Positions 24,524-50,027 of a stretch of DNA of 64,000 nt are shown in pieces (positions within the stretch are counted from its first letter, which is position 1; each line of letters starts with the position of its first letter). A model generated the notes under the pieces. That model did no database searches. It had not been told where the DNA came from and was given only the letters and a program-made list of their open reading frames with translations. This DNA comes from Massilia sp. R2A-15. Its GTDB lineage: Bacteria; Pseudomonadota; Gammaproteobacteria; Burkholderiales; Burkholderiaceae_D. The stretch spans positions 3,782,001 to 3,846,000 of the forward strand of contig NZ_CP131935.1 in NCBI RefSeq assembly GCF_030704305.1. Reading direction: 5' to 3'. A program made the position numbers and the translations under genes.

Positions 24524-24527
24524 AAAC

Positions 24528-24627: not shown

Positions 24628-24635
24628 GACCCCTC

Positions 24636-26843: not shown

Positions 26844-26970
26844 TGATCTTGATCTGTTTTGAATGGGCGGAATGGCCGATATTGACCACGGCCGCTATCA
26901 TCGCAGAACAAGCGCGGGGAATGGGGGAAATGCGACGGAATGCCGCATTTGTGTCGCGAAGTGCGCATAC

Positions 26971-27064
26971 GGGGTCTGGTCCTGCGGATCTGCCCCCATT
27001 TTCTGTCGGTCGTAAATACAAGATGGGGACCAGGCGTCCCCATCGTCCCGCAGGACCAGACCCC
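26971..27064. repeat. MITE-like composite bounded by family A inverted repeats
   Basis: A 94-bp unit whose ends are 17-base perfect inverted repeats: GGGGTCTGGTCCTGCGG at 26971-26987 and its reverse complement at 27048-27064. A second internal hairpin GGGGAC...GTCCCC occurs at about 27024-27041. The unit lies between the TonB receptor start and the convergent end of dctP, and fits the same family as 39447-39567. Confidence 0.85.
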
Positions 27065-27070
27065 GCTACC

Positions 27071-28168: not shown

Positions 28169-28275
28169 TGCATTGTCTCCTGTTGGTTTTTATCGCGGAA
28201 TATGCCCGGGGCTAGTGTATTAGCGCGATGGAAACCTTGCAATGGAAAAATTTATTCACCGCTAACCGTTTCGCA

Positions 28276-28353
28276 GTCATTCCTGCGCAGGCAGGAATCC
28301 ATGCTGAAGATGAACTCCGGCTCAGTATGGGTTCCAGCCTCCGCTGGAACGAC
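28276..28353. repeat. Family B REP/BIME-like inverted repeat
   Basis: A 78-bp element with arms at 28276-28307 (GTCATTCCTGCGCAGG...) and 28322-28353. Reverse-complemented, the right arm reads GTCGTTCCAGCGGAGG, so the two arms are diverged but each remains self-complementary (TTCCTGC/GCAGGAA and TTCCAGC/GCTGGAA). The element lies between divergent/convergent ends of dctP and pmbA. Confidence 0.88.
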
Positions 28354-28361
28354 AGGCGGGG

Positions 28362-29714
28362 TCAGCTGCCCGCCACCACCATGTTTTCGATCAGGATCGA
28401 GCCGGTCGACTTGTTGCCGCGGATGAGGACGTCGTTGCCGATGCCGACGATCTGGCGGAACATGTCCTTCATGTTGCCGGCGATGGTGATCTCCTCGACC
28501 GGATACTGGATTACGCCGTTCTCGACCCAGAAGCCGGACGCGCCGCGCGAGTAGTCGCCGGTGACGTAGTTGGTGCCCTGCCCCATCAGCTCCGTCACCA
28601 GCAGGCCGCGGCCCATCTTGCGCAGCATGCCGGCGAAATCGTCGGCGCGCTTCGTTTCAGTAGACGTCATCGACAGGTTGTGCGAGCCGCCCGCGTTGCC
28701 CGTGGTTTGCATGCCCAGCTTGCGCGCCGAGTAGGTCGACAGGAAGTAACCCTGCACCACGCCATCCTTGACGACGTTGCGGCGCACCGTGCGCACGCCT
28801 TCCTCGTCGAACGGGGCCGAGCCGACGCCGCCGATCAGGTGCGGGTCTTCGAGAATCTGTATGTGCTTCGGGAACACCGACTGTCCCAGCGAGTCGAGCA
28901 GGAAGGTGGACTTGCGGTACAGCGCGCCGCCCGAGGTGGCCTGGACGAAGGCGCCGAGCAGGCCGGCGGCCAGCGGCGCCTCGAACAGCACCGGGCAGGT
29001 GCGGGTGTCGAGCTTGCGCGCGTTCAGGCGCGCCAGCGCGCGCTCGGCGGCGTAGCGGCCCACCGCTTCGGGCGATGCCATCTTGGACGCGTCGCGCACC
29101 GAGGTGTACCAGTCGTCGCGCTGCATCTTGGCGCCCTTGCCGGCGATCGGCGCCACCGACAGGGTGTGGCGCGAGAACGGATAGCCGCCCGAGAAGCCGC
29201 GCGAATTGGCCGACACGAAGTGCGACTGCTGCACGTGCACGCTGCCGCCTTCGCTGTTGGTGATGCGCGGATCGACATCGAACGCGGCGCCTTCGGCACG
29301 CTGCGCCAGCGCCACCGCTTCCTCGGTCGAAATCAGCCACGGGTAGCACAGGCGCAGGTCGCGCGGAGCCATTTCAAGCAGGTCGGCGTCGGCCAGGCCG
29401 GCGCAGTCGTCTTCGGCGGTGAAGCGCGCGATGTTGTAGGCCGCGTCGACCGTGGCGCGCAGCGCCGCCGGCGAGAAGTCCGAGGTGCTGGCATTACCGC
29501 GCTTCTGGCCGATATAGACCGTCACTCCCATGCCCTTGTCCTTGTTTTGCTCGATCGTCTCGATCTTCCCCCGTCGAACCGTCACCGCCAGCCCGCTGCC
29601 TTCGCTGATTTCAACCGCGGCATCGGTGCCGCCCTTTTCGCGCGCGAACGCCAAAACGTCGGCGGCGAGCTGTTTCAGCTGGTCCTGGGTATGGATAAAG
29701 ACGGATTCGCTCAT
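28362..29714 (-). CDS. pmbA: PmbA/TldE, regulatory partner of TldD metalloprotease
   Basis: A 450-residue TldE/PmbA protein. Blocks such as VTVYIGQKRGNASTSDFS, NSEGGSVHVQQSHFVSANSRGFSGGY and GMQTTGNAGGSHNLS are characteristic. Together with TldD it forms a heterodimeric peptidase that matures peptides (microcin B17, CcdA). TldD is usually elsewhere in the genome, as here. The ATG at 29714 is divergent from darP with 92 bp between. Confidence 0.95.
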   Translation of the reverse strand: MSESVFIHTQDQLKQLAADVLAFAREKGGTDAAVEISEGSGLAVTVRRGKIETIEQNKDKGMGVTVYIGQKRGNASTSDFSPAALRATVDAAYNIARFTAEDDCAGLADADLLEMAPRDLRLCYPWLISTEEAVALAQRAEGAAFDVDPRITNSEGGSVHVQQSHFVSANSRGFSGGYPFSRHTLSVAPIAGKGAKMQRDDWYTSVRDASKMASPEAVGRYAAERALARLNARKLDTRTCPVLFEAPLAAGLLGAFVQATSGGALYRKSTFLLDSLGQSVFPKHIQILEDPHLIGGVGSAPFDEEGVRTVRRNVVKDGVVQGYFLSTYSARKLGMQTTGNAGGSHNLSMTSTETKRADDFAGMLRKMGRGLLVTELMGQGTNYVTGDYSRGASGFWVENGVIQYPVEEITIAGNMKDMFRQIVGIGNDVLIRGNKSTGSILIENMVVAGS

Positions 29715-29806
29715 GGGGTGTTTTCTTCGTTTGGGCGCTAAAACAGTTATGATAGCAGTCGTTTACTGTTTTTACCGGTCGGCCGTGCGCCGTCTGGATC
29801 CATATC

Positions 29807-30418
29807 ATGCCAAATCCAAACCGCGGTGCCTGCGGGTTCCAATCCTCCGAATTCGAACAAGAGTACGAGCGTCCATCCAAGTCCGAGGCCAAGCGCCAGA
29901 GCCTCGAAGTCCAGAAGCTGGGCGAGGAACTGGTCAACGCGCCGCGCGACCGCGTCAAGCGCGTGCCGATGCCGGAGGACGTGATGGAGGCGATCCTGAT
30001 GTGCCAGACCATCACCAATCACGAAGGCCGCCGGCGCCAGATGCAGTTCGTCGGCAAGAAGATGCGCACCCTCGACGAAGAGGAAATCGCCGTCATCCAG
30101 CGCACCATCGAAGGATGGAAAGGCATGTCGAAGGCCGACACCGCGGCGCTGCACGCGCTCGAGCGCCGCCGCGACAAGCTGCTGGCCGACGACAAGGCGC
30201 TGACCGTGCTGCTGGAAGAGCATCCTGAACTCGACGTGCAGCACCTGCGCGCGCTGATCCGCAACGCGCGCAAGGAGCAGGCCGAGAACAAGCCGCCGAA
30301 AGCCTATCGCGAGATTTTCCAGATCCTCAAGGACCTGTCGAAGAAAGGCCAGGCGGCCAAGACTGACGACGAGGACCTCGACACCGACGCGGAAGACGAT
30401 GAGCACGACGACGAATAA
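29807..30418 (+). CDS. darP: DarP (YjgA), dual-action ribosomal maturation protein
   Basis: A 203-residue DUF615/DarP protein that binds the immature 50S subunit. It is almost entirely helical and highly charged; the family block RPSKSEAKRQSLEVQKLGEELV is followed by DVMEAILMCQTITNHEGRRRQMQFVGKKMR, with an acidic C-terminus (DDEDLDTDAEDDEHDDE). The pmbA-darP divergence is a widespread gene order in proteobacteria. Its 3' end overlaps mog by 20 bases. Confidence 0.94.
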   Translation: MPNPNRGACGFQSSEFEQEYERPSKSEAKRQSLEVQKLGEELVNAPRDRVKRVPMPEDVMEAILMCQTITNHEGRRRQMQFVGKKMRTLDEEEIAVIQRTIEGWKGMSKADTAALHALERRRDKLLADDKALTVLLEEHPELDVQHLRALIRNARKEQAENKPPKAYREIFQILKDLSKKGQAAKTDDEDLDTDAEDDEHDDE

Positions 30419-31016
30419 CACCGAACTGGTGATCGGACTGGTGTCGGTGTCCGACCGCGCCAGCGGCGGCGTGTACGAAGACAAGGGCATCCCGGCGCTG
30501 GCCGACTGGCTCAAGTCCGCGTTGACCACGCCGTTTCGCGTCGAGACGCGCCTGATCCCCGACGAGCGCGCCGAGATCGAGCGCACGCTGGTCGATCTGG
30601 TGGACACGCAGCGCTGCCACCTGGTCCTGACCACCGGCGGCACCGGCCCGGCGCGGCGCGACGTCACGCCCGAGGCGACGCTGGCGATCGGCACCAAGGA
30701 GATGCCGGGCTTCGGCGAACAGATGCGCCAGATCAGCCTGCAGTTCGTGCCGACCGCGATCCTGTCGCGGCAGGTGGCGGTGATCCGCGAGACACCGGAC
30801 CACGCGGCGCTGGTGATGAACCTGCCCGGCCAGCCGAAGGCCATCAAGGAAACCCTGGAAGGCCTGAAGGACGCCGACGGCAAGCAGCTGGTCGGCGGAA
30901 TCTTCGCGGCCGTGCCGTATTGCGTGGACCTGATCGGCGGGCCGTACATGGAAACCGATCCGGCCGTGTGCAAGGCGTGGCGCCCGAAGACGGCGCTGCG
31001 TCCGCAACCCAACTGA
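30399..31016 (+). CDS. mog: Molybdopterin adenylyltransferase
   Basis: A 205-residue MogA-family enzyme that adenylates molybdopterin before molybdenum insertion. It carries the MPT-binding motif TTGGTGPARRDVTPEA near residue 75 and GLVSVSDRASGG at the N-terminus. Its ATG lies within the end of darP (20-base overlap), implying translational coupling. Confidence 0.94.
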   Translation: MSTTTNNTELVIGLVSVSDRASGGVYEDKGIPALADWLKSALTTPFRVETRLIPDERAEIERTLVDLVDTQRCHLVLTTGGTGPARRDVTPEATLAIGTKEMPGFGEQMRQISLQFVPTAILSRQVAVIRETPDHAALVMNLPGQPKAIKETLEGLKDADGKQLVGGIFAAVPYCVDLIGGPYMETDPAVCKAWRPKTALRPQPN

Positions 31017-31028
31017 ATGGAAGACCGC

Positions 31029-31697
31029 ATGACCAAGCTGCTCGAAAATATCGAAATCGAAACCGCGCCGAATCCCACCGTCGCGATCATCTGGATGCAC
31101 GGCCTGGGCGCCGACGGCAACGACTTCGTGCCGCTGGTGCGCGAGCTGGACCTGGCCGGCCTGCCCGGCATCCGCTTCGTGTTTCCGCATGCGGACACGA
31201 TGCCGGTGACGGTCAACGGCGGCTACGTGATGCGTGCCTGGTACGACATCGTCCACTCGGACCTGGGCCGGCGCGAAGACGAAGGCGGCTTGCGCCGTTC
31301 GCAGGCGCAGGTTGAGGCGCTGATCGACCGCGAGAAGGCGCGCGGGATCAAGGCCGACCGCATCATCCTGGCCGGCTTCTCGCAGGGCTGCGCGATGGCG
31401 CTGCAGACCGGCTTGCGCCATCCGGAAAAACTGGCGGGCCTGATGTGCCTGTCCGGTTACGTGCCGCTGTCGGCCACGGTGCCGTCCGAGCGCAGCGAAG
31501 CGTCGATCGACACGCCGATCTTCATGGTGCACGGCCGCGCCGACGGCGTGATCCCGATTGCGCGCGCGGAACAGTCGCGCGACCTGCTCAAGTCGATCGG
31601 CTACCAGGTCGAGTGGCACGACTATCCGATGCAGCACTCGCTGTGCCAGGAAGAAGTCGACCACATCGGCGCCTGGCTCAAGAAGGTTCTGGCTTAA
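31029..31697 (+). CDS. Alpha/beta-hydrolase carboxylesterase (phospholipase/carboxylesterase family)
   Basis: A 222-residue esterase of the YtpA/Est-type carboxylesterase family. The nucleophile serine is in GFSQGCAMA, the aspartate in GRADGVIP and the histidine in MQHSLC, and WMHGLGADGNDF forms the oxyanion region. Two in-frame starts exist (31017 and 31029); GGAAG lies 4 bases before the ATG at 31029, so that is preferred. It starts 12 bases after the mog stop, probably in the same transcript. A REP-like element follows the stop. Confidence 0.92.
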   Translation: MTKLLENIEIETAPNPTVAIIWMHGLGADGNDFVPLVRELDLAGLPGIRFVFPHADTMPVTVNGGYVMRAWYDIVHSDLGRREDEGGLRRSQAQVEALIDREKARGIKADRIILAGFSQGCAMALQTGLRHPEKLAGLMCLSGYVPLSATVPSERSEASIDTPIFMVHGRADGVIPIARAEQSRDLLKSIGYQVEWHDYPMQHSLCQEEVDHIGAWLKKVLA

Positions 31698-31717
31698 GCA
31701 CTAATATCCTCAAGACC

Positions 31718-31796
31718 GTCATTCCCGCGCAGGCGGGAATTCAGACTGAGCGTGCTTCAATTACTCAGCATGGATTCCCGCCCGCGCGGGAATGAC
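31718..31796. repeat. Family B REP/BIME-like inverted repeat
   Basis: A 79-bp element with arms at 31718-31749 (GTCATTCCCGCGCAGG...) and 31765-31796. The first 9-11 bases of the arms (ACCGTCATTCCCGCG...) mirror the end AATGACGGT, and each arm has its own CCCGC/GCGGG stem. It follows the esterase gene by 20 bp and may stabilise or end its mRNA. Confidence 0.88.
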
Positions 31797-31880
31797 GGTT
31801 TTTGGGATAGCAATCTATCAAACGCCGCAAATTTCCTAGCGGGGTAAAATCCCCGAACTGCCTCACCCAGAAAGCATCAC

Positions 31881-32150
31881 ATGAAAAAAACCGACCTGGC
31901 CAAGAGCGACGCCAAAAAATTGATGGGCCAGATGACGATCCCGTCGGCCGCGGGCTTCGGCAACGCCGGCGCCACCGTGGCGATCGACCGCCGCGAGCAG
32001 CGCAAGCTCGACCAGGCCGCGGGACTGGTGCCGTTTGCCGTCAAGCTGAACAGCGACCTGGTCAAGCAGTTGCAGGAGCAGGCGAAGGCACGCGCGGTCG
32101 ACATGAATACGCTGGTCGCCGAACTGCTGGCCAAAGGCCTGGCGGCGTAA
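31881..32150 (+). CDS. Small protein with ribbon-helix-helix-like C-terminus
   Basis: An 89-residue protein with a basic N-terminus (MKKTDLAKSDAKKLMGQ) and a C-terminal block GLVPFAVKLNSDLVKQLQEQAKARAVDMNTLVAELL. That block has a strand followed by two helices with hydrophobic spacing of the Arc/CopG DNA-binding fold. It is 20 bp upstream of another small gene and may form an operon with it. The function is unknown; possible roles include a small transcription regulator. Confidence 0.7.
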   Translation: MKKTDLAKSDAKKLMGQMTIPSAAGFGNAGATVAIDRREQRKLDQAAGLVPFAVKLNSDLVKQLQEQAKARAVDMNTLVAELLAKGLAA

Positions 32151-32170
32151 ATTCGATCAAGGGGAACAAG

Positions 32171-32368
32171 ATGGCAAAGAAAGAAGAGCTGGACGAAGAG
32201 ACGATGGCACTGATTAACTGGTGCATCGAGGTGGAGAAGTTCCTCGTCGCCGGCGGCGCCACGCAGAAGGAGGCGCAGGATCATATCGAGGAGCAGGTCG
32301 AGTGGTTCACCGACCAGTTCTCCGACGGCCTGACGCCGGAAGAAGCGGCCAAGGAAGCGCTGGCCTAA
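32171..32368 (+). CDS. Small acidic protein of unknown function
   Basis: A 65-residue, strongly acidic protein (MAKKEELDEETMALINWCIEVEK...). It is probably all helical. A family A hairpin with a U-tract at 32413 sits 45 bases beyond its stop and would end its transcript. It directly follows the 89-residue RHH-like gene. RBS AAGGGGA precedes the ATG. No known family could be recognised. Confidence 0.6.
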   Translation: MAKKEELDEETMALINWCIEVEKFLVAGGATQKEAQDHIEEQVEWFTDQFSDGLTPEEAAKEALA

Positions 32369-32412
32369 GTAATCATCGCCCGTACAGCCTTGCAGGCGGC
32401 GGCGACCAAACC

Positions 32413-32446
32413 GGGGTCAGGTCCGACGGACCTGACCCCATTTTTT
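32413..32446 (+). terminator. Family A palindrome functioning as a rho-independent terminator
   Basis: A perfect 12-bp stem GGGGTCAGGTCC with loop GAC and arm GGACCTGACCCC (32413-32439), followed by A and TTTTTT (32441-32446). The U-tract after a strong stem is what intrinsic terminators need, so this copy probably ends the small-protein transcript on the plus strand. Confidence 0.75.
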
Positions 32447-32463
32447 CTGGCGCCGGCTTGCGA

Positions 32464-33018
32464 TCAGTCGGGAAGCATCCACGCCGATGACGGCGGCATT
32501 GCGGTCTGCGCGGCGTTCATCACCATCGCCAGGAAGGTGTAGTAGCCGTTGATGCCCATCAGGTCGACCACGCCGTGTTCGCCGAACAGCGCCAGCGCCG
32601 CGGCGTAAGTCGCATCGGTGACGCGCTTCTGCTGCTGCAGCTCGGTGCAAAACGCGTAGACCGCCGCTTCGTCGTCGCGCAACGCGGGCGGCGCGCGGCG
32701 TTCGGCGATCGCGTCGATGACGTCGCGCGCAATGCCATTCTGCTGCGCGAGCGGCGCGTGGATCGCCCACTCGACCTTCTGGTTCCACTCACGCGCGGTA
32801 ACCAGGATCGCCAGCTCCGACAGGCGGGTGCCGATCGCGCTGCGGTAGCGCAGGTGTTCTCCCATGCGCTGCGCATTCTCCATCAGCTCAGGACTGCGCA
32901 GCAGCGGCACGAACGGGCCGTAAAGCGCGCCGCGCGGCCCGTCGATGATGACCTGCGCCGCGCGGCGCTGCTCGTCGGTAATCTGGTCCGCGCCGAGCGG
33001 CCCGAGGCGATCCTTCAT
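32464..33018 (-). CDS. Carboxymuconolactone decarboxylase-family protein
   Basis: A 184-residue protein of the CMD/AhpD-like fold. The block SELAILVTAREWNQKVEWAIHAPLA is the usual signature (metal/His motif region), and RYRSAIGTRLSE precedes it. Members include 4-carboxymuconolactone decarboxylase and AhpD-like peroxiredoxin adaptors; the two-cysteine AhpD motif is not present, so it is not an AhpD. The ATG overlaps the preceding FAH-family stop by 4 bases. It ends the flavoprotein-MFS-FAH-CMD operon. Confidence 0.88.
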   Translation of the reverse strand: MKDRLGPLGADQITDEQRRAAQVIIDGPRGALYGPFVPLLRSPELMENAQRMGEHLRYRSAIGTRLSELAILVTAREWNQKVEWAIHAPLAQQNGIARDVIDAIAERRAPPALRDDEAAVYAFCTELQQQKRVTDATYAAALALFGEHGVVDLMGINGYYTFLAMVMNAAQTAMPPSSAWMLPD

Positions 33019-33863
33019 CGCGCGGCCTTCGATACGACCAGCTGCTGCTGTTCGCCCAGGCCGGCGATCCCGAGGCGCAGCTTGTCGCCGGCCTTGAGGA
33101 AGCGCTGCGGCTTGCGGCCGACGCCCACGCCGGGCGGGGTGCCGGTGGCGATGATGTCGCCCGGCTCGAGCGTCATGAAGCGCGACAGGTAGCTGACCAG
33201 CTGCGCGACGGTGAAGATCATCGTCTCGGTGCTGCCGGTCTGCATCCGCTTGCCGTTCAGTTCCAGGTAGAGGTCGAGCCGCTGCACGTCGAACACTTCG
33301 TCGCGCGTGACCAGCCACGGCCCGACGGGGCCGAAGGTATCGCAGCCCTTGCCCTTGTCCCACTGCGAGCTTTCGAACTGGTAGCCGCGCTCGGAAACGT
33401 CGTTGACGACGCAATAGCCGGCGACGTAGTTCAGGGCATCGGCTTCGCTGACGTACTGCGCGCGGGTGCCGATCACCACGCCCAGCTCCACTTCCCAGTC
33501 GCCCTTCTTCGCGCCCGGCGGCAGCACCACGTCGTCGTCGGCGCCGGACAGGCTGGAGATGGCCTTCATGAAGACGATCGGCTCTTTCGGGATTGCCATG
33601 CCGGTTTCGGCGGCGTGGTCGGCGTAATTGAGGCCGATGCCGATGAACTTGCCCACGCCGGTCAGCGGCACGCCGAAGCGCGGTTCGCCGCGCACCAGCG
33701 GCAGGCTGTCGGGATCGACCTTGGCCAGCTTGCGCAAGGCCTTGTCCGACAGGAGGGCCGGGCCGATGTCGTCGACAATGCCGGCCAGGCTGCGCAGCCG
33801 GCCGAATTCATCGATCAGGCCAGGTTTCTCTTTACCGGGACGGCCATAGCGGACCAGTTTCAT
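33015..33863 (-). CDS. Fumarylacetoacetate hydrolase-family enzyme
   Basis: A 282-residue FAH-fold enzyme (ring-cleavage-product hydrolase, ureidoglycolate lyase-like). Landmarks: VGKFIGIGLNYADHAAETGMAIPKEPIVFMK, the acidic metal site KGDWEVELGVVIG and the C-terminal PGDIIATGTPPGVGVG. Members hydrolyse C-C bonds of 2,4-dioxo acids or isomerise/decarboxylate aromatic ring-fission products. It lies between the MFS permease and a CMD-family gene, and its start is inside the MFS gene (32-base overlap). The exact substrate is unknown. Confidence 0.9.
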   Translation of the reverse strand: MKLVRYGRPGKEKPGLIDEFGRLRSLAGIVDDIGPALLSDKALRKLAKVDPDSLPLVRGEPRFGVPLTGVGKFIGIGLNYADHAAETGMAIPKEPIVFMKAISSLSGADDDVVLPPGAKKGDWEVELGVVIGTRAQYVSEADALNYVAGYCVVNDVSERGYQFESSQWDKGKGCDTFGPVGPWLVTRDEVFDVQRLDLYLELNGKRMQTGSTETMIFTVAQLVSYLSRFMTLEPGDIIATGTPPGVGVGRKPQRFLKAGDKLRLGIAGLGEQQQLVVSKAAR

Positions 33864-35049
33864 ATTCTGCTTTCGAAGGGATGCCAGGCTGGCATTTTAC
33901 CCGTTCGCGCAGAAGCGCAATGGCGGCGATGCAAAGCGCCGACAAGGCCAGCGCCGCGCTGCTCGCGACAAACAACAGCGCGTACGACTGGCGCGTGCTC
34001 ATGACCGACACCATGATGGCGGCGGCGCCGGCCTGCGCCAGCGAAAAGCCGCAGTTCATCGCGGTCCAGTTGCGCCGGTGCTCGCCGGCGCCGCCGATCT
34101 CCAGCGCGTAGCTCGATGCGGCGCCGACGATGCCGGGCGAGAAAAAGCCGACCAGCACCGACGACAGCAGCAGCGCCGCCCCGCCATCGGCCACCAACGG
34201 CAGCGCGACCCCGGCGGCTTTCAGGACGAACGCGATGAACAGCGTTGACGACAGGCCGATGCGGTCGGCGACGACGCCGGTCAGGTAGGGTCCGCAGGCC
34301 GCGCCGGCGCCGAAGCAGGCCCAGAAAAAGCCGGCCTGCGCCAGCGGGCGGTGCAGCTCGCGCGTGATGTAGTCGGCCCAGAACAGCGTGTGCGGCAGGT
34401 AGCCGACCGCATTGAGCGCATACGCGATGAGCAGCAAGGTGACCGGCGCGGGCAGGCGCCAGTTCAGCGCAAACGCCGGTTGCGGCGCTTCAGGCGCCTT
34501 GCCCCAGTAGTCCCAAGTGATGGCGGTAAGCAGCAGACAGATGGCGCCCAGCGTCATCCAGGTGGCGGTCAGTCCCTCGTGCAGCAGCGCGGGCACCACG
34601 GTGGCGGCGGCGACGATGCCCAGGCCCACGCCGGAGAAAATCAGTCCGCTGACGCGGCCGCGGCGTTCGACCGGCGTGCGCGGCAGGATCAGCACCGGCG
34701 CCTGCACCATCAGGATGGCCCCGCAGGCGCCGGCGACGGTGCGCCAGCCGAGGAACCAGGCGATGCCGCCGCCGCGCCAGGCGCAGCTGAAAAAGCTGAG
34801 GGCGCACAGCAGCATCGCCAGCTGCACCATGCGGCCGGCCGCCATCGAACGGGCGAGCCAGGCGGCGATGCCGATGCCCAGAAAGTAGCCGGTGAGGTTG
34901 GCGGCGCCCAGCCAGCCCGCCTCGGTGCGGCTGAACCAGGCCTGCTGCACCAGCAGCGGCAAGATCGCGACATACGCGAAGCGGCCGATACCGACCCCGG
35001 TCAGCGTGGCCGCCATGCCGCACAGCCCGGCCGGGATCGCGCGCTTCAT
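33832..35049 (-). CDS. YbfB/YjiJ-family MFS transporter
   Basis: A 405-residue membrane protein with about 12 helices. The N-terminal GVGIGRFAYVAILPLLVQQAWFS is the YbfB/YjiJ family (DUF1228) signature. It begins 1 base after the flavoprotein stop, and its own 3' end overlaps the FAH gene by 32 bases, marking tight coupling. Its substrate is unknown; the operon context suggests a small organic acid or aromatic compound. The last ~20 residues (SKAEYETGPLWPSR) are encoded within the overlap. Confidence 0.88.
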   Translation of the reverse strand: MKRAIPAGLCGMAATLTGVGIGRFAYVAILPLLVQQAWFSRTEAGWLGAANLTGYFLGIGIAAWLARSMAAGRMVQLAMLLCALSFFSCAWRGGGIAWFLGWRTVAGACGAILMVQAPVLILPRTPVERRGRVSGLIFSGVGLGIVAAATVVPALLHEGLTATWMTLGAICLLLTAITWDYWGKAPEAPQPAFALNWRLPAPVTLLLIAYALNAVGYLPHTLFWADYITRELHRPLAQAGFFWACFGAGAACGPYLTGVVADRIGLSSTLFIAFVLKAAGVALPLVADGGAALLLSSVLVGFFSPGIVGAASSYALEIGGAGEHRRNWTAMNCGFSLAQAGAAAIMVSVMSTRQSYALLFVASSAALALSALCIAAIALLRERVKCQPGIPSKAEYETGPLWPSR

Positions 35050-35050
35050 C

Positions 35051-37042
35051 TCAGCTCTGGACCATCGCGGCGGAGCTGCAATGGACGATTTCGGGCTCGG
35101 GTTCGGACACCAGGCGCAGCGCGACCGGTTCGAACGCTTCCTGCGCGGACACGGGCGCGGGCACGGGCTTGGCGCAGCGCTCGGCGATGGCGTCCATCAT
35201 CAGGCCGACCGCACGCCCGGCGTCGACCATGGTGGTGGAGTTGGCGCCAGGGCGCGGCAGCACGAAGGTGTAGAACTTGCAGCCTTCGACCAGGGTGCCC
35301 AGCGCCCAAAGCGTGGTCTGCGAGGAGCCGTCCTGCGCCACCACGTTCATGTTGCGGTCGACCGTGATGCCGCCCGGGTGGAACTGGCCGTTCGTGAAGG
35401 GCCGCACGATCCCGCGCTGCACCAGCTTGCGCATCAGCGGCGACTTGTCCTCCAGCGGGCCGGGCAGCGAAGCGCGGCCGCGCACCAGCACATTGGCGGT
35501 GACGGGATCGCCCTGCCAGTGACTATGCACCACGAAGCAGCCATTGCCTTCGTCGAGGGTGCTGTGCGCGCCCGGGCCGAAATCGGCGCGCACGGTGCCG
35601 GCGTCCATCAGCGCCAGCAGCTGGGCGATGCGTTCCTTCGGCGGGCCGACCGCGAGGCGGTTCATGATCGGCAGGAATTCGGACAGCACCCAGCGGTGCG
35701 AGTGTTCGTACAGGCCGCCGAAGTCGATCGCGCTGCGCACCACGTCGCGCACGTCGCGCAGCACGTCGCAGGCCGACTTGACCGGGCTATCGAGGTTTCC
35801 GCGCAGCGCGTGCTCGACGTCGCGCCACATGTGCCCGCGCAGCCAGTCGTCGAACTGGCGCCGGCTCTTGAGCGCCAGCGGCGGGATCGGGTCGACCAGC
35901 TTTTCCCACGACAGCTGCTCGCGGCGGTCGATGTGGCGGTCGATCAGCGCCTGGCGCGCCTTGCCGTTTTCGCACGCCATGAACTCGTTGCTGAACATGA
36001 GTGCGGCGATCTTGTCGCGCTTGTGGTGCAGGTAGGCGAAGTAGTAGGCGAACTGCATGTCGCACCACAGCAGCGGGATGATCTGCTTTTCGAAATCGAG
36101 CTGGCCGCCGCCGGACTCGCGGCGCAGCTGCTCTACCTTGGCGAAGGTGAGGAACTTCGGCTTGTACTGGCCGAACACGCCCTTCTGATTAACCGCGCGC
36201 GCCGTCAGCGGCAGCCCGGAGCGCGAGTACAGCAGGATCTTCGGTTCCTGGCCCGACGGGCGGTAGCGCAGGCGCGCCGCCGGCTCCATCTTGCCGCAGG
36301 ATTCGAACTTGCCGCCGCGGCCGGCCGTCAGCTGCGAGATCAGGTCGAAGCTGGTCAGGCCCATGCCTTCGATGGCGATGGTGTCGCTGGCGGTCACGCT
36401 CGACACCGCATTGCGGATCGGGTAAGGCTCGAGCACCAGCTGCAGGCGCGCATTGCGGCTGCGCGCCGCCTCGACTTTCGCGGTCAGCGCGCGCTCCGGC
36501 TCGGAGAGGACCTTGCGCGCGTGACCGGTGGTGAGGAACACGAAGTCGGCGGGATAGCCGCAGCCGTCGTACGAGACGGTCCAGCGCTCGCCTTTCCATT
36601 CGAGGTCGTCGACGCCGGCGTAGTTATGCAGGAAGATCGTCATGTGCGGCGGCGCCAGCTTCTTCAGGTACTCGAAGCCCCAGCGCAGGTAGTCGCCGAA
36701 CAGCGCGCGCGAATAGTAGCCGTTGCGGTCGATCTCCTCCTTGGGGCCGATGCCGCTCATGCTGTTGCGGCTGGCGAGCCAGTCGGCGAACGACGGGCCG
36801 TACAGCAGCGGGCCGGCGCCGCGCACGGTGTCGTCGGAAAACTGGGTCATCTGGCAGGCCACCGTGTTGACCAGCAAGTGGTCGGCCTGGTCGGTCGTGT
36901 GGCAGCCCGGGCCGAACTCCTTGCTGTCGAACAGGTACAGTTCGAGCGGCGTCGCGCTGGCGTCGTTGCGCGCATAGGCGATGATGCGGTCGAACACTGA
37001 AATGCCACGCGGCCCGAGGCCGATTATCGCAATTTTGACCAT
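35051..37042 (-). CDS. FAD/NAD(P)-binding flavoprotein (NAD_binding_9 type)
   Basis: A 663-residue flavoprotein beginning MVKIAIIGLGPRGISVFDRI, a Rossmann motif of the FAD/NAD(P)-binding type. A second nucleotide motif appears near residue 215 (IAIEGMGLTSFDLISQL). The start at 37042 has AGGA 5 bases upstream and is preferred to an ATG 12 bases earlier. This protein family is poorly characterised and includes N-hydroxylating or Baeyer-Villiger-like monooxygenase homologues; the reaction here is not known. It is the first gene of the MFS/FAH/CMD operon. Confidence 0.8.
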   Translation of the reverse strand: MVKIAIIGLGPRGISVFDRIIAYARNDASATPLELYLFDSKEFGPGCHTTDQADHLLVNTVACQMTQFSDDTVRGAGPLLYGPSFADWLASRNSMSGIGPKEEIDRNGYYSRALFGDYLRWGFEYLKKLAPPHMTIFLHNYAGVDDLEWKGERWTVSYDGCGYPADFVFLTTGHARKVLSEPERALTAKVEAARSRNARLQLVLEPYPIRNAVSSVTASDTIAIEGMGLTSFDLISQLTAGRGGKFESCGKMEPAARLRYRPSGQEPKILLYSRSGLPLTARAVNQKGVFGQYKPKFLTFAKVEQLRRESGGGQLDFEKQIIPLLWCDMQFAYYFAYLHHKRDKIAALMFSNEFMACENGKARQALIDRHIDRREQLSWEKLVDPIPPLALKSRRQFDDWLRGHMWRDVEHALRGNLDSPVKSACDVLRDVRDVVRSAIDFGGLYEHSHRWVLSEFLPIMNRLAVGPPKERIAQLLALMDAGTVRADFGPGAHSTLDEGNGCFVVHSHWQGDPVTANVLVRGRASLPGPLEDKSPLMRKLVQRGIVRPFTNGQFHPGGITVDRNMNVVAQDGSSQTTLWALGTLVEGCKFYTFVLPRPGANSTTMVDAGRAVGLMMDAIAERCAKPVPAPVSAQEAFEPVALRLVSEPEPEIVHCSSAAMVQS

Positions 37043-37232
37043 GTGAGTCCTCATCTGGTGGGAATGCACGCGGAATAAATCATTTCCGAAGGGGAATGAT
37101 AGGTTCGGATGCCAATGGGCAAGTTGCGGCATCGCAATCACCGGTGTGCGAGCCATGCTTTTGAGAAAGCGCAAACGGCGTTTCCGGGCGGGCGGTACAG
37201 TAGATACCGTCAACGAATTTCCCGGAGGAAAT

Positions 37233-37682
37233 ATGAAACTGCTTACTTGCGCCGTACTCACCGCCGCCCTCGCCTGGGCCCCTTGCGCCTTTGCCGAGCC
37301 CTCCGAAAAGGACGCCATCTCGATGGTCGAGAAAGGCGCCGCGTTCATGAAGTCGAGCAGCAAGGAGGAAATGATCAAGCGCATCAACGCCAAGGATCCG
37401 GACTATGTGCAGGGCGCGCTGTACCTGACCATGCGCGACGCCAAGGGCGTGATCCTGGCCAATCCGGTCAACTCCGCGATGATCGGCAAGGACCTGGTGG
37501 ACGTGCCCGACGCCGACGGCAAGCTGTTCCGCCGCGAGATCCTCGAACTGGCCAAGAAAAAGGGCAAAGGCTGGGTCGACTACAAGTTCAAGAACCCTTC
37601 CAGCGGCAAGGTCGAAGCCAAGACCACCTACATCCAGCTGGTCGGCGACGTGACGCTCGAGGCGGGCATCTACAAGAAATAG
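37233..37682 (+). CDS. Stand-alone periplasmic Cache-domain protein
   Basis: A 149-residue protein with a Sec signal peptide (1-21, ending AFA) and a single Cache domain: [37 protein letters not shown] and the diagnostic [25 protein letters not shown]..., close to sCache_2. It has no transmembrane or output domain, so it is a soluble periplasmic ligand sensor. RBS GGAGG is 5 bases from the ATG. It precedes the chemoreceptor at 37730 by 47 bp. Confidence 0.9.
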
Positions 37683-37729
37683 GGACTCGGCGTCCCGCGG
37701 CGTTTGAATCATCACTGGCAGGAGTCGGC

Positions 37730-39421
37730 ATGCTGAAAAAATTACGCATTGGTCCCAAGTTGCTGTTGGCCCCGGGACTGGTCCTGATCCTGCTGATCGT
37801 CACCGCCGGCAGCGCCTATTACGGCATGGTGCGCCAGAACGCGTCGCTGGAGAACCTGGTGCAGGTGCGGGCGGCGCGTTTGAAAGCGGCGGCCGACGTG
37901 TCGGGCGACGCCAAGTACGCCCACGCCAACATCTATCAGCTGCTGGCGTGGATCAACGGCAGTTTCGCCAAGGCGCGGGTCGATGCGCTGACCGCCGACA
38001 TCGGCCGCAAGCACACGGCGATCGCCGCACAGCTGGCGGCGATGGCGGCGGTGGCCGATCCGGCCGAGCGCAAGATCATCGACGCGTCCGGCGCCGCGCT
38101 GGTGGGCTACCGCAAAAGCGTGCAGCAGACGATCGAGCTGGCGCAGGTGGACCAGTCGACCGCCACCGCGTCGATGAGCAAGGCCGAGAAGGAGTTCGGC
38201 GTGCTCAATAGCCAGCTGGGGCAACTGTCGGCGCTCGAGCGCGCGCTCTCCGAGCATGCGTTCGCCGCGGCGAAGTCCGAGTTCCGTACGCTGGTGATGA
38301 CGATGGCGCTGCTGGTGCTGCTGTCGATCGGCCTGTCGATGCTGGCCACCTTCCTGGTGCGGCGCGCGATGCTGGGCGATATCCGGGCGATCGCCGACGT
38401 GGTGGGCGAACTGGCCGAGGGCCGCCTGGTGGGCGGCGCCGGCACCGACGGGCGCGACGAAATCGCCGCCACTTCGCGCGCGCTGGACCACACCATATCG
38501 CGCCTGACCGACAGCCTGCGCAGCATCCTGTCGTCGGTGCGCTCGATCGACACGGCGTCGCAGGAAATCGCCACCGGCAACCTGGACCTGTCGACCCGCA
38601 CCGAGATGCAGGCCGGCTCGCTGGAACAGACCGCCAGCGCGATGGAGACCTTGACCATCGCGGTCAAGGACAACGCCAACAACGCGCGGCTGGCGACCGA
38701 ACTGGCGGCGTCCGCGGCGACGCTGGCGGCCAACGGCGGCAAGGCGGTCGACCGCGCGGTGACGACGATGGAGTCGATCAAGGCCAGTTCACGCAAGATC
38801 GTCGAGATCATCGGCGTGATCGACGGGATCTCGTTCCAGACCAATATCCTGGCGCTGAACGCGGCGGTCGAGGCGGCCCGCGCCGGCGAGCAGGGACGCG
38901 GCTTCGCGGTGGTGGCGTCGGAAGTGCGCACGCTGGCGCAGCGCTCGGCGGCGGCGGCCAAGGAGATCAAGGCGCTGATCGCGGCGTCGGTGGCGATCAT
39001 CGACGGCGGCAGCGCGTCGGTCAACGAGGCCGGCAGCAGCATGGGCAACATCGTCGCCTCGGTCCAGCAGGTCAACGACATCATCGCGCGCATCAGCGTG
39101 GCCAGCTCGGAGCAGGCCGAGGGCATCGCCGAGGTCAATCACGCGGTGGGCCAGATGGACGACATGACGCAGCAGAACGCCGCGCTGGTCGAAGAAGCCG
39201 CGGCGGCGGCGGCCAGCCTGCACGAGCAGACCATCAACCTGGCGCAGGCGGTGTCGATCTTCAAGATCGATGGCGACGAGACGGCGATGCAGGAACCGGA
39301 GCCGGAGCCGGAGCCCGACAGCTTCCGCGATCCGCAGGAACGGCGGGCGCCGGGCAGCGGCATGCGCGGGACGCCGCCGAGGGCGCTCGGACATCGTCCG
39401 ACGGGCCGCAAGCAGGGCTAG
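37730..39421 (+). CDS. Methyl-accepting chemotaxis protein
   Basis: A 563-residue chemoreceptor: N-terminal membrane helix (about 10-32), periplasmic four-helix-bundle-like region (about 35-190), second helix (about 192-212), HAMP (about 213-265) and signalling domain with the conserved hairpin [42 protein letters not shown]. The ATG at 37730 follows AGGAG. The C-terminal tail is proline- and acid-rich ([10 protein letters not shown]) and lacks the usual CheR pentapeptide. The adjacent free Cache protein may report a ligand to it. Confidence 0.94.
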
Positions 39422-39446
39422 CCGAATCAGTAGCGCGCGCATCGTC

Positions 39447-39567
39447 GGGGTCTGGTCCTGCGGACCTGACCCCATGTTGCAAATCCCGGGCGACACCGCG
39501 ATTACACACTGTGCTCTTTGGGGCCTGGCGAAATCAAAATGGGGTCAGGTCCGCAGGACCAGACCCC
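39447..39567. repeat. 121-bp element with 27-base perfect inverted family A ends
   Basis: The left end (39447-39473) is GGGGTCTGGTCC-TGC-GGACCTGACCCC; the right end (39541-39567) is its exact reverse complement. The 67-base spacer begins ATGTTGC and ends AATCAAAAT. Each end is itself nearly palindromic with a single mismatch (T opposite T). The arrangement is that of a miniature inverted-repeat element and matches the composite at 26971-27064. It sits between the chemoreceptor and the 3' end of mpg. Confidence 0.92.
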
Positions 39568-39600
39568 GTTTCTGCGAGCCGCACCATTTGCACTCTAAAC

Positions 39601-40167
39601 TCAAAACGGCCGGCTGACGAAGCGCGAGCCGGCCAGCCCGAAGCGCCACAGCGTCTCCTTCGCCTTCGAGATGCCAATGCGCGGACCGGCCACCACTTCC
39701 ACCGGCGCCGCGCCCGGCGCCAGCTCGAACGGCGGCAGCGCCAGCGCCATGCCGTTATGCTCGCGCGTCACCGCCAGCGCCTGGCACAACTTGCCGGGAC
39801 CGGAGCACAGCAGGCGCGCGTCATCGAGGCCGCGGCGCGCGCGCATCACGTCCAGTCCCGCCAGCGGCTCGAGCGCGCGGATCAATACCCCGGCGCCGTG
39901 GCCCTCCTCGCGGCAGACGAAATTGAGGCACCAGTGGATGCCGTAAGAACGGTACACATAGGCGTGCGCCGGCGCTCCGAACATGGCGCGATTGCGCTCC
40001 GTCGGCCCGGAATAACTGTGCGAGGCCGGATCCTCGCGGTCGTAGGCTTCGGTTTCGACGATGCGCCCGCCAACGCCGTCCACCAGCACCAGCACGCCGA
40101 TCAGCTGGCGCGCCACCTCGTGCGAGGGCGCGCGAAAGTCGATGCCGGCCACAATCGATTTATTCAT
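39601..40167 (-). CDS. DNA-3-methyladenine glycosylase (Mpg/AAG family)
   Basis: A 188-residue alkyladenine DNA glycosylase. The block [30 protein letters not shown] contains the catalytic glutamate region (VETEAY, residues 37-42), and [16 protein letters not shown] is the family's second signature. It removes alkylated and deaminated purines in base-excision repair. It is transcribed away from the HDOD gene with 134 bp between. Confidence 0.93.
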
Positions 40168-40301
40168 ATAGCAATTTTATAACGGACGTCCACCTTGTTC
40201 AGTTCGGAATGCCACAGATTGCGTGGAACGAGTGCGGCCCGCGCGGCGCTGGTTTATCATGTCGATTAGTTCCCAAAAGCAATGAAATCGTTAGTTGATC
40301 C

Positions 40302-41159
40302 ATGAACAACCTTGCAGTACTCGCGCAGCCGGACGCCGACCCGGTCGACGCCTTGATCAAGTCGATCCGGATCCCGCCCCGTCCCAGCCTGCTCGCCGAC
40401 CTGCAGCGCGAGCTGGCCTCGCACGAGCCGTCGCCGGCGGCGATCGGGCGCACCATCGCCAGCGATGTCGGCATGGCCGGCGCCCTGCTCAAGCTGGCCA
40501 ACTCCTCGTTCTACGGCGGCAAGCGCCAGGCCAAATCGGTCGACCAGGCCATCGCTTTCCTCGGCATCAACCAGGTCGCCGCGCTGATGGCCGGCCTGCT
40601 GGCGCGCCAGGCGATCGTCTCGGGCAACGTGTCGCTGGCGGCGTTCTGGGACCTGTCGACCCGGCGCGCGCAGGCGATGGTGTTCCTGTCGCGGCGCCTG
40701 CGCATCGGCGCACCCGACGTGGCCCATACCTTCGGCCTGTTCTGCGACACCGGCGTGGCGCTGCTGCTGGACCGCTTCGACGGCTACGGCGTCACCTTCG
40801 ACATCGCCTGCGCCGACGACGCGCGACGCTTTACCGACATCGAGGACGAGCGCCACAGCACCAACCACGCTGCGATCGGCTGCCTGCTGGCGCGCAACTG
40901 GGGCCTGTCGGCCAACGTCGCGTGGGCAATCCTGCATCACCACGATTACAGCGTCATCGACGATCGCGCCAGCGACGACGCGGTGCGCTCGCTGGTGGCG
41001 CTGTCGCTGCTGGCCGAGCGCGCGCTGCAGGCCTATCAGGGCCACGTCCAGTCGCTCGAGTGGGAAAAGGGCGGCGCGCGCGCCTGCGCCTACCTTGGCC
41101 TCGCCGAGGACGAAGTGACCGACCTGGTCGACCAGCTGCTGGACGCCTTCAGCCACTAA
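40302..41159 (+). CDS. HDOD-domain signalling protein
   Basis: A 285-residue protein built of a single HDOD domain (about 20-215) with the hallmark LLKLANSSFYGGKRQAKSVDQAIAFLGINQV. The HD-type metal residues are degenerate (HHHDY occurs near 210), as expected for HDOD proteins, which act as regulators and not phosphohydrolases. It is divergent from mpg and is followed after 46 bp by a GNAT gene. The function (chemotaxis, stress or c-di-GMP signalling) is not determined. Confidence 0.9.
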   Translation: MNNLAVLAQPDADPVDALIKSIRIPPRPSLLADLQRELASHEPSPAAIGRTIASDVGMAGALLKLANSSFYGGKRQAKSVDQAIAFLGINQVAALMAGLLARQAIVSGNVSLAAFWDLSTRRAQAMVFLSRRLRIGAPDVAHTFGLFCDTGVALLLDRFDGYGVTFDIACADDARRFTDIEDERHSTNHAAIGCLLARNWGLSANVAWAILHHHDYSVIDDRASDDAVRSLVALSLLAERALQAYQGHVQSLEWEKGGARACAYLGLAEDEVTDLVDQLLDAFSH

Positions 41160-45259: not shown

Positions 45260-45297
45260 GGGGTCAGACCAGTTGGTCTGACTGCTTGGTCTGACCC
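45260..45297. repeat. Diverged family A palindrome
   Basis: GGGGTCAGACCA and TGGTCTGACCC arms repeat in a 38-base block: TCAGACCA/TGGTCTGA form a perfect inner stem, and a third arm (45287-45297) pairs with the first as well, allowing alternative hairpins. It lies just downstream of the OpuC-like stop and may help end the transcript. Confidence 0.75.
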
Positions 45298-48061: not shown

Positions 48062-48648
48062 GGCTTGCCGGATCCGAGGAAGATGTCGACGATGAAGATG
48101 GTGGCCTCGGTCGCTTCGAGCGTCCAGACGGTTTCGGTGTCGAATACGATGGCGTCGAAGCGCACCAGGCCAATGCGCTCGTCGTCGCTGCTGACCGACA
48201 GGCTCTCGCCTTCAGCCAGGAAGAGTACCGTGCGGTCGCCCCGCGGCGCGAACACCGAGCGGCCCTCAAGGCGCCGGCGTCCGAATTTGTGATGGCAGCT
48301 TGCTCGCCGTGTCATCACATTGAAGTCGATGGTCGGTCCGCCGTTCAGGGTCGCCTGCACCGCGGCCTCGCCGGCGAACTCGATCACCGTGTCCTCGTCG
48401 CCCAGCACGAAGCGGCGGCACTCGTCGATGTCGAGCAGCAGGCCGGGTCCTTCGACCAGCGCAAGCGTGCGATCAATGCCGGGAAACAGCGAGAACGGGC
48501 CGTCCTGCGACACCGTCGCAAGGCTGATGCGCCAGTCGAAATCGTGGAACTGCGATTCCGGCGGTTCGACCGTGATCTCGGTCGTGCTGCCGCCGCCGTT
48601 CTTCCACGGCACCGGCGCAAGGCTGGCAAACGGAATGAGCATGGTCAT
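48058..48648 (-). CDS. hutD: HutD family protein
   Basis: A 196-residue HutD, a cupin-like protein of the histidine operon with a probable role in limiting hut expression at high histidine flux (shown in Pseudomonas fluorescens). The conserved [14 protein letters not shown] motif near the N-terminus and [14 protein letters not shown] are visible. Translation is coupled to hutF upstream and hutI downstream by 4-base overlaps. Confidence 0.95.
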
Positions 48649-50027
48649 GAGCGGAACTCCCGCAGTTCGGCAAGGGCCTGTTTATAGCGCCGCGCGATGG
48701 CGTCCTGGTCGACGTGCCGCCCGCCCTGCACTACCCAGCGTCCGCCCGCCAGCACATCGCGCACCAGGTTGTCGTTCCCGGCGAAGATGAAGGCGCCCAT
48801 CACATCGTCGCTTGCCGCGCCGTCCAGATTCGGATGCTCGCTGTCGAGCACCAGCAGGTCGGCGCGCAGCCCAGCCGCCAGCGCGCCTACCGGCCGGCCG
48901 CTGGCCTGCGCGCCGCCCTGCAAGGCGCCCTGCCAGAGGAATTCGGCGACCCGGCGTTGCGTGTGCGAGACCGCGACGTTGCGCCGCTGGTGCTGCAGGC
49001 GCTGGCCGTACTCCAGCCAGCGCAGCTCTTCGACCGGGCTTTGCGACACGTGACTGTCGCTGCCGATGCCGAATCGTCCGCCCGCGTGGATGAACTGCTC
49101 CAGCGGGAAGATGCCGTCGCCCAGGTTCGCTTCAGTGGTCGGACACAGGCCGGCGACGGCGCCGCTGTCGGCGATGCGGTCGACTTCATCGGCGTCGATA
49201 TGGGTGGCGTGCACCAGGCACCAGCGCGCGTCGAGCGCGATGTGCTCGGACAGGTAGCGAAGCGGGCGCATGCCGGAAAATTCGAGGCAGCCGAGCACTT
49301 CGGCCTGCTGTTCGGCGATGTGGATATGGAGCGGGCGGCCGGCCGGCAGCGCCTGCGTCAGTTCGAGGATCTGGCTGACCGAGGCCGCCCGCAGCGAATG
49401 GGGCGCCGCGCCCACTTCGAACTGGCCGCCGCGCAGCGGTTCGAGCGCTTCGACGATGCGCAGCACCTGGTCGGGATCGGTGCGAAAGCGCTGCTGGTCG
49501 CTGCCCAGCGCCAGTTCGCCGAAGCCTGCGTAACTGTACAGCACCGGCAGCATGGTCAGGCCGATGCCGGCCGCCCGCGACGCCGCCGCAACGCGTTCGG
49601 CCGTTTCCGCCGGCCGCGCATAGAGCGAGCCGTCCGGCGCACGCTGCACGTAATGAAACTCGCACACCGACGTGTAGCCGTGCCGCAGGCATTCGGAAAA
49701 CAGCTGCGCCGCGATCGCTTCGATCTGCTCCGGCGTGATGTTGCGCGCGAAGCGGTACATCAGTTCGCGCCAGGTCCAGAAGCTGTCCGGATTGTCGCCG
49801 GCGGTTTCGGTCAGCCCGCCCAACGCGCGCTGGAAGGCGTGCGAATGCAGGTTCACCATGCCGGGCAAGACCAGCTCCACGGTCCGCGGGGTCTGGTCCT
49901 GCGGACCTGACCCCGACGACCCGGGCGTCACTGCGGTCAGCACGCCGGCGTCGTCCCATTCGATCAGGACGTCAGCCGCCCATCCCTGGGGCAGCAGCGC
50001 CCGGCGGGCGAACAGCCAGCCGCTCAT
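48645..50027 (-). CDS. hutF: Formimidoylglutamate deiminase HutF
   Basis: A 460-residue amidohydrolase-superfamily deiminase that turns N-formimino-glutamate into N-formylglutamate. The metal motif is NLHSHAFQRAL; the later motifs (HIHIAEQQAEV, GIGSDSHVSQSP) are the family's. The start at 50027 overlaps the hutG stop (ATGA) and is preferred to an in-frame TTG at 50039. An extra palindromic insert (SGSGPQDQTPR) occupies residues about 38-48, in a loop just before the metal-binding strand. Confidence 0.96.
   Translation of the reverse strand: MSGWLFARRALLPQGWAADVLIEWDDAGVLTAVTPGSSGSGPQDQTPRTVELVLPGMVNLHSHAFQRALGGLTETAGDNPDSFWTWRELMYRFARNITPEQIEAIAAQLFSECLRHGYTSVCEFHYVQRAPDGSLYARPAETAERVAAASRAAGIGLTMLPVLYSYAGFGELALGSDQQRFRTDPDQVLRIVEALEPLRGGQFEVGAAPHSLRAASVSQILELTQALPAGRPLHIHIAEQQAEVLGCLEFSGMRPLRYLSEHIALDARWCLVHATHIDADEVDRIADSGAVAGLCPTTEANLGDGIFPLEQFIHAGGRFGIGSDSHVSQSPVEELRWLEYGQRLQHQRRNVAVSHTQRRVAEFLWQGALQGGAQASGRPVGALAAGLRADLLVLDSEHPNLDGAASDDVMGAFIFAGNDNLVRDVLAGGRWVVQGGRHVDQDAIARRYKQALAELREFRS
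49888..49914. repeat. Family A palindrome inserted in frame in hutF
   Basis: A 27-base copy (stem GGGGTCTGGTCC / GGACCTGACCCC) inside hutF. Because 27 is divisible by three and no stop appears in the reading phase, it adds about nine residues (SGSGPQDQTPR including edges). The insert lies between the N-terminal beta strands and the metal-binding motif, a tolerant loop. Confidence 0.9.

Follow-up and report, generated by a model that had tools for sequence, protein, structure and literature searches.

A probable REP/REPIN population in Massilia sp. R2A-15 and the RAYT gene located between its repeats

At positions 39447-39567 of the analyzed stretch of the Massilia sp. R2A-15 chromosome (64,000 nt, contig positions 3782001-3846000, here referred to as the window) two copies of one palindromic sequence face each other, which raises the question whether they form a mobile element and what moved it. 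An earlier note on this DNA had claimed perfect inverted ends of 27 nt. Indeed, 39447-39473 and 39541-39567 are exact reverse complements around a 67-nt spacer. According to our homemade gene caller the structure is located between the convergent genes 37730-39421 (+) and 39601-40152 (-).

The repeat unit, here named family A, consists of a 27-nt hairpin, GGGGTCTGGTCC-TGC-GGACCTGACCCC, followed by an ATYTT tail. It starts with GGGGTCAG, which represents the GGGGWSAS motif. The exact consensus GGGGTCTGGTCCTGCGGACCTGACCCC or its complement was present in 46 of 109 copies sampled from the genome. This form contains a T.T mismatch in the stem and thereby has a direction (F). In 83 oriented copies the five tail positions were A (90%), T (90%), T/C (91%), T (89%) and T (82%), respectively; the complete ATYTT was exact in 55 of them and carried at most one mismatch in 74. 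The motifs GTAG, GTGG, GGAG and CGTC were found 0, 1, 1 and 3 times in these 83 copies with both feet counted. The folding energies as single-stranded DNA were -12.3 kcal/mol (z -6.3) for a single REP and -45 kcal/mol (z -8.95) for the complete structure at 39447-39567.

A covariance model based on 22 family A copies from the genome and applied to the window with a limit of E < 1e-3 matched nine sites (1861, 24528, 24601, 26971, 27020-27064, 32413, 39447, 39541 and 49888). The core pattern at up to 3 mismatches was found at 8 sites of the window compared to none in 100 shuffles, and an Rfam scan of the window gave no match at gathering scores. At least ten sites of one family had been proposed before. 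The nine stand, while 45260 and 19357 did not match the family A model up to E 1 and the cluster at 55866 yielded one doubtful match (55975-55999, E 0.013). The sites 19357 and 45260 and the larger part of the 55866 cluster represent other types of repeats.

The structure at 39447-39567 is a REPIN by sequence, model and single-stranded fold, that is, two inverted REPs with the tails inward: one at 39447-39478 (+), orientated F with an ATGTT tail (E 1.2e-17), and one at 39536-39567 (-), orientated R on the plus strand with an ATTTT tail (E 8.5e-19). A degenerate REPIN spans 26971-27065 with a left REP at 26971-27002 (+; E 3.2e-16) and a diverged right half at 27020-27064 (-; E 8.2e-05). Here inverted ends of 17 bases had been described for 26971-27064; the perfect inverted repeat exists but comprises 18 nt (26970-26987 and 27048-27065). 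Another pair is formed by a REP with a symmetric stem at 24523-24554 (-; E 7e-15), which is terminator-like on the minus strand, and a symmetric copy changed on both sides (GGTGTC/GACACC) at 24601-24627 (E 8.8e-07). Single REPs were located at 32413-32444 (+; pattern match and model), terminator-like and with an ATTTT tail, and at 1856-1887 (-; model and gene caller), 33 nt before the 3' end of gene 1-1920 (+).

The genome consists of one contig of 5.03 Mb. Using the pattern GGGGTCWGGTCCNNNGGACCWGACCCC, 693 family A sites were found when up to 3 mismatches were allowed and 659 with a limit of 2, and a reversed control pattern gave no site in the genome. Since the pattern is its own reverse complement, forward and reverse counts represent identical sites. 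The sampled copies mentioned above derive from 40 stretches of 20 kb and the window (864 kb), which contained 109 sites at up to 4 mismatches.

Within this sample 30 neighbouring pairs had starts less than 400 nt apart. Both members were oriented in 26 pairs, and all 26 were inverted, the tails pointing inward in 15 and outward in 11 of them; the other four include a symmetric copy. Palindromes without paired inverted ends had been named as a sign of non-mobile copies, and inverted pairing was found instead. The spacers ranged from 14 to 90 nt in 29 pairs, with 333 nt in the remaining one. In 60 random placements between genes a mean of 11.25 pairs (largest 19) was closer than 130 nt, compared to the 29 observed. 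Paired copies were more alike than single ones (0.944 for 57 copies versus 0.858 for 52; 0 of 1000 permutations), and singlet REPs were common (52 of 109). The strand of single REPs relative to the replichore showed no bias (Fisher p 0.71), but only 32 copies were oriented and the GC skew was noisy.

Two Y1_Tnp genes are present in the genome, at 4.060 and 4.219 Mb. Both lie outside the window (3.782-3.846 Mb), and for the Y1 type the earlier note was thus right in seeing no transposase there. The gene at 4.219 Mb, 373 kb outside the window, is an IS200-like/RAYT gene encoding 195 aa (here named P0001). Its frame is open and contains the HuH motif NHYH, FQ (VFQAR) and YVVLNP. The sole domain found was PF01797 (Y1_Tnp; 43.2 bits, cut-off 23); the NCBIfam model REP_Tyr_transpos was missed by 0.3 bits (79.7 bits, cut-off 80), and a domain search found no C-terminal helix-turn-helix (HTH) in the 195 aa.

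An exact family A REP follows P0001 4 nt past the stop codon (L002:1242-1268) and is therefore located behind the gene and not in frame. Upstream, 59 nt before the start, there is a REP with one stem pair changed (L002:1920-1946), and one further, truncated family A repeat lies beside the gene. Two repeats flank the RAYT gene in the same tails-inward arrangement as at 39447-39567. A RAYT-type transposase with matching repeats, as suggested for follow-up, was hence found, and since P0001 lies between family A repeats, the transposase not seen in the window is located in the same chromosome.

The second gene, P0002, is very distant from P0001 and flanked by other palindromes, GGGTCAGACC..GGTCTGACCC (L001:1128-1213 and 1963-1983). 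The palindromic repeat at 45260-45297 of the window resembles these and does not belong to family A. A strict pattern for this repeat type gave one copy in 864 kb, namely the one at 45260-45297.

Of 392 genomes of the family, 277 contained relatives of P0001 (E ≤ 1e-20). Family A itself was found at up to 2 mismatches in only four of the 392: 659 sites in the own genome, two in G225 and one each in G203 and G295, the latter two being of the GTGGTC form. G225 belongs to another genus and is 86% complete; its two copies (L215:807-833 and L216:720-746) may represent transfer or contamination. In the whole genomes of four congeners, here named G001 to G004 (G004 82% complete), no family A site was found at this limit.

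This absence is based on the whole-genome pattern count and on alignments of the flanks. For 24528, 26971 and 39447 both flanks aligned to G001 and G002 with no family A in between. For 32413 both flanks aligned in G002, again without family A, and in G001 the right flank aligned only 600 nt further. With a 19.9-kb query G001 and G003 aligned through 24528, the contigs of G004 being fragments. That the alignments are broken at all four REP places in all congeners could be ruled out, as G001 and G003 are continuous through 24528. With flanks of 75-91% identity the intergenic DNA of the congeners is too diverged for insertion ends to be read. In the same gaps as 24528 and 26971, G003 has pairs of its own repeat (L161:1473-1500 and 4014-4041), which suggests that the repeats of both genomes arrived independently in the same slots.

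Three of the congeners carry other repeats beside their RAYTs. The RAYT of G003 lacks the HTH, comprises 202 aa and is 60% identical to P0001. Its repeat, GGGGACTGGCGCCGTAGGTGCCTGTCCC-ATGTT, is located upstream and a second copy lies inside the 3' end of the gene, where the in-frame REP is seen in the DNA (L155:1026-1054). G003 contained 84 forward and 85 reverse matches to this repeat, many of them sites on both strands and thus roughly 85 sites, and the other four genomes contained none. G001 and G004 possess RAYTs with HTH and a plain TIR, GGGGTCAGGTCTGACANTCGGACATTT, with 94+99 and 102+110 sites, respectively, and none in the other three genomes. This TIR folds weakly in G001 (-2.3 kcal/mol versus -12.3 for the family A REP). 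A 64-nt miniature of two plain TIRs facing each other was observed in G001 (L144). G002 lacks all three repeat families and has two RAYT relatives.

In four of the five genomes repeats and RAYTs change together, without cross-occurrence at the mismatch limits used. Each of the three repeat families adjoins a RAYT of its own genome; in G001 and G004, which have several Y1 genes each, the pairing of family and gene rests on the flanks. A hairpin REP together with its RAYT was seen at the DNA level in two genomes only. Loss of the HTH alone as the cause of a high copy number is weakened, since G001 and G004 with their HTH-bearing RAYTs hold about 193 and 212 TIR copies.

The RAYT genes of the own genome and of G003 are located between the same two neighbours, judging by their translations presumably TonB-receptor and dinB genes. 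The G001 gene (L071, with HTH) adjoins the same presumed TonB-receptor gene, and dinB lies about 2.2 kb beyond. The RAYTs of the own genome and G003 point in opposite directions (L002:1242-1984 versus L155:1000-1673), as if inverted between the flanking inverted repeats.

Taken together, family A represents with a probability of roughly 85% a REP/REPIN population, most likely moved by P0001. The claim of the earlier note that the structure is a non-autonomous mobile element is supported in a RAYT-dependent form because family A flanks the RAYT, all oriented pairs are inverted, four congeners lack family A, and repeat and RAYT are matched in the congeners.

The gene context of the copies gives some reason to regard them instead as intrinsic terminators which were multiplied by chance or selection and are not mobile. 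Based on approximate gene positions (homemade caller, coding fraction 84%), 104 of the 109 sampled copies were located outside genes, 50 in tandem, 46 in convergent and 8 in divergent gaps, and five inside, three of them within 33 nt of a gene 3' end and two deep inside. Convergent and divergent gaps provide 17% (21,547) and 29% (35,844) of the intergenic bases, tandem gaps 67,872. Furthermore, 24528 and 32413 are terminator-like and the region 24000-40500 contains 21 terminator-like sites compared to 11.2 (sd 3.2). However, terminators need no sequence identity, whereas family A occurs nearly identical at hundreds of places and is absent in the four congeners; its inverted pairing and the presence of the same sequence around a RAYT speak against this explanation as well. 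We consider it very unlikely, although termination may be a side-effect of the REPs. Regarded alone, 39447-39567 with its perfect inverted ends and short spacer looks like a classical MITE moved by a DDE transposase, the 27-nt ends being terminal inverted repeats. Target-site duplications, which the earlier note had proposed to search for, were not clearly in excess, neither in 29 pairs (mean longest direct repeat 0.48 versus 0.30 after re-pairing of the flanks, a value reached by 14% of the shuffles) nor in 83 single-REP flanks (0.64 versus 0.63). Moreover, the narrow range of spacers in 29 of 30 pairs, the fact that each end is itself a hairpin and the occurrence of both tail-in and tail-out pairs argue against a MITE, and the one DDE-type IS found at the REPs has other ends (TGAGATG) and uses the REP as a target. 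Such an origin is highly improbable. Since there is no clear duplication excess and single REPs are common, REP/REPIN is the better description.

Family A might also have been spread once by a RAYT and now consist of immobile relics, i.e. fixed host sites (protein-binding, supercoiling, terminator) or landing pads of an IS. P0001 is the sole gene of its kind in the genome, the singlets are diverged as well as common, and REPs harbour all ten copies that were found for an IS3-family element. On the other hand, the 46 copies with the exact consensus suggest recent copying or strong constraint, and the frame of the RAYT is open with its HuH and Y motifs present. We regard the relics as unlikely, if worth keeping in mind, and prefer the REP/REPIN population moved by P0001.

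The IS3-family element mentioned above is 1257 bp in size; rve and HTH_21 were present in the one copy scanned. The ten copies, found by the left end (L224-L233; G000:C1:239817, 646557, 1009357, 2501371, 3084413, 3604845, 3883465, 3886094, 4352083 and 5017935), all interrupt the family A REP at the identical position and are bordered by a 4-bp GACC duplication; in all nine copies where this could be told the element is orientated in the same direction as the REP. It is an IS dedicated to REPs, by analogy with IS1397. IS1397, ISKpn1 and ISPsy8, as presented in the part of Tobes and Pareja 2006 (PMC1525189) used here, are likewise of the IS3 family and site-specific in REPs, whereas both the REP sequence and the IS are different in our case. 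The element represents a natural REP-targeting IS with a fixed target.

To place P0001 among its relatives, 17 loci from Massilia, Duganella, Pseudoduganella, Janthinobacterium and one unnamed Pseudomonadota bin were translated. Fifteen of the products had 277-296 aa, and all 15 contained an HTH-like segment. Exact TIRs of at least 15 nt holding GGGGTC were present in 12 of the 15 full-length named relatives. In general most relatives of P0001 had 277-306 aa and an HTH-like segment, with Pfam HTH scores below the cut-off in three; the Pfam entry for L071 was based on a truncated reference and is uninformative on its HTH. In the HTH-bearing relative L046 the gene ends inside its right TIR.

An automatic hairpin screen covered the RAYT flanks of 46 loci, leaving out L061, L063, L064, L065, L067 and L095; its regular expression for the HTH missed some proteins of 278-292 aa. 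The screen flagged the own flanks, missed the G003 repeat and found short GGGGTC hairpins beside two HTH-bearing genes (L059 and L096). The split between hairpin and plain repeats is thus not perfectly clean.

Trees were calculated without rows of less than 190 aa (L062 and L066, cut by contig ends). The RAYTs of the own genome and G003 were sisters (100/97), and the enclosing clade additionally comprised G001 L071, G004 L069 and L047 of M. eurypsychrophila (96/89). After the addition of 16 short database proteins 18 HTH-less rows were placed on one side of a branch (100/99.9). When the tree was based on the first 185 residues, the HTH-less RAYTs with 221-226 aa fell outside the clade of those with 183-209 aa. 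From these sequences a second loss of the HTH appears likely, a single origin being found in 5% of the bootstrap trees.

The C-terminal tails were compared in the best 120 of 7876 matches, which include all 27 proteins with 183-226 aa other than P0001. Of the 27 short relatives among these best 120, 15 carried the form G[VD]R...P[VD]P; the 40 proteins with 270 aa or more that were compared (34 different) all lacked it. If the codons are chosen accordingly, 14 of these 15 tails, as read from the protein, could encode a perfect 12-3-12 hairpin. The tail of P0004, GVRSAGPDP, could on the same protein reading be family A itself, GGGGTCAGGTCC-GCA-GGACCTGACCCC. All 15 tails combine a V at one end with a D at the opposite end, and 14 show full pairing of the third arm codon (P/G, S/G, H/V). 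The 12 short proteins without this form comprise P0026, P0034 and P0037, which have MGQAP in another frame, and nine with partial, diverged or no tails. Nine-residue windows outside the last 60 residues reached a perfect palindrome score in 0.02% of 12,914 cases; depending on the protein, 2 to 11% of the shuffled tails gave the top score, and in P0006 the top score came from an unrelated stretch. The nine-residue test is coarse, and the evidence comes mainly from the recurring G[VD]R...P[VD]P form and from the DNA of G003.

An AlphaFold2 model of L046 (65% identical to P0001; pLDDT 75) had 4er8 as its sole PDB match at E ≤ 0.001 (E 1.7e-05, TM 0.67 by target, 18% identity over the alignment). 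The sequence of P0001 matched 4er8 weakly (E 0.0016). The best solved fold for the predicted structure is thus that of TnpA-REP with a bound REP hairpin.

Concerning the mechanism, two inverted units would form a longer hairpin in single-stranded DNA. P0001, as a Y1 enzyme of the HuH type, would bind the single-stranded family A hairpin and cut beside it, and the cut hairpin would be joined elsewhere without target duplication. The Y1 domain most likely recognizes the hairpin together with an A/T foot (AARAT on the 5' side, in the place of GTAG in described REPs) and probably moves REP pairs during replication. This view of recognition, cutting and strand choice follows the analogy of IS608, ISDra2 and TnpA-REP. 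The part of Quentin 2018 (PMC6006769) consulted provides a further basis for this analogy.

The lineage of P0001 presumably descends from a TIRYT-type element that possessed an HTH and was flanked by TIRs, its repeat having turned into a full palindrome in the course of the HTH loss. In HTH-bearing relatives the right-end repeat already overlaps the gene end, which would be the starting point of an in-frame fusion. As a tentative joint reading, which we rate somewhat short of an even chance, a REP system was born here from an IS-like element: a deletion fused the Y1 part in frame to the right-end repeat, the HTH was lost, and the repeat turned into a complete hairpin recognized by Y1 alone. 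The tail would then be the protein's own substrate, both would change together with stem changes in one half of the tail compensated in the other half, and about 700 copies would have resulted in the own genome. If true, the matching REP of such a RAYT could be read from the protein sequence alone. One genus contains both HTH-bearing RAYTs with plain TIRs and HTH-less RAYTs with hairpins, with the same chromosomal neighbour in G001, the own genome and G003, which allows a direct comparison of the steps leading from an IS end to a REP.

RAYT groups are reportedly defined in Bertels 2017. Family A resembles the TIRYTs of Di Nocera 2013 (PMC3733652), there described in part as moderately abundant TIR families with the GGGGWSAS motif, and RAYTs of subclass 2.1 in the start of the repeat, in the motifs NHYH, FQ and Y--LNP of P0001 and in a repeat family beside the gene. 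The overlap of the gene end with the flanking repeat, as in L046, is a TIRtron-like feature. Compared by eye, the Y motif of subclass 2.1 (YIELNP or Y[IV]HLNP; Table 1 of PMC6006769) differs from YVVLNP in the third letter. In contrast to TIRYTs, family A forms a full hairpin instead of a plain TIR, is present in hundreds of copies, and P0001 lacks the C-terminal HTH. Nevertheless, the passages of Di Nocera 2013 used here mention a TIR family of S. maltophilia that is self-complementary, besides some TIRs with partial or complete self-complementarity, so that the step from TIR to hairpin has a precedent. Searches reported in the consulted sections of Quentin 2018 found no REP-like sequences beside subclass 2.1.

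Inverted hairpin doublets that are more alike than single copies and mostly extragenic have also been described in the parts considered of Bertels and Rainey 2011 (PMC3116915) for REPINs and RAYTs of Pseudomonas and of Nunvar 2010 (PMC2817692) for gammaproteobacterial REP/RAYT, and there as well RAYTs are flanked by the same repeats, each with its own. According to Nunvar 2010, as far as drawn on here, RAYTs with abundant REPs occur in gammaproteobacteria only, besides a transferred case in Thauera. Unlike the GTAG/CGTC-tagged REP super-families in Di Nocera 2013, again consulted in part, family A has no such foot and its conserved flank is ATYTT. Described REP-linked proteins have W-Q/E whereas P0001 has FQ, and no GTAG guide accompanies family A, which suggests that a REPIN population can do without the GTAG guide presumably read by TnpA-REP. 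No published description of the family A repeat was found in the open-licence literature. The system falls among the types already described; within the literature searched, however, a hairpin REPIN population of about 700 copies without GTAG beside an HTH-less member of the subclass 2.1 branch is a new form of them.

Two observations concern single places. The two REPs deep inside genes keep the frame and both encode GSGPQDQTP: the copy at 49888-49914 (+) of the window (model and translation) in gene 48645-50027 (-), presumably deiminase-like, and L102:3766-3792 in a gene which we take to be a TonB receptor. The congeners have linkers of similar length at both places, so these REPs are not clean inserts. 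At 55848-56009 the window contains a cluster of GGGGTCAGACC(C) repeats which are partly palindromic and by the model not family A. TIR-like pairs resembling this cluster are present in G001 (about L141:13985-14190).
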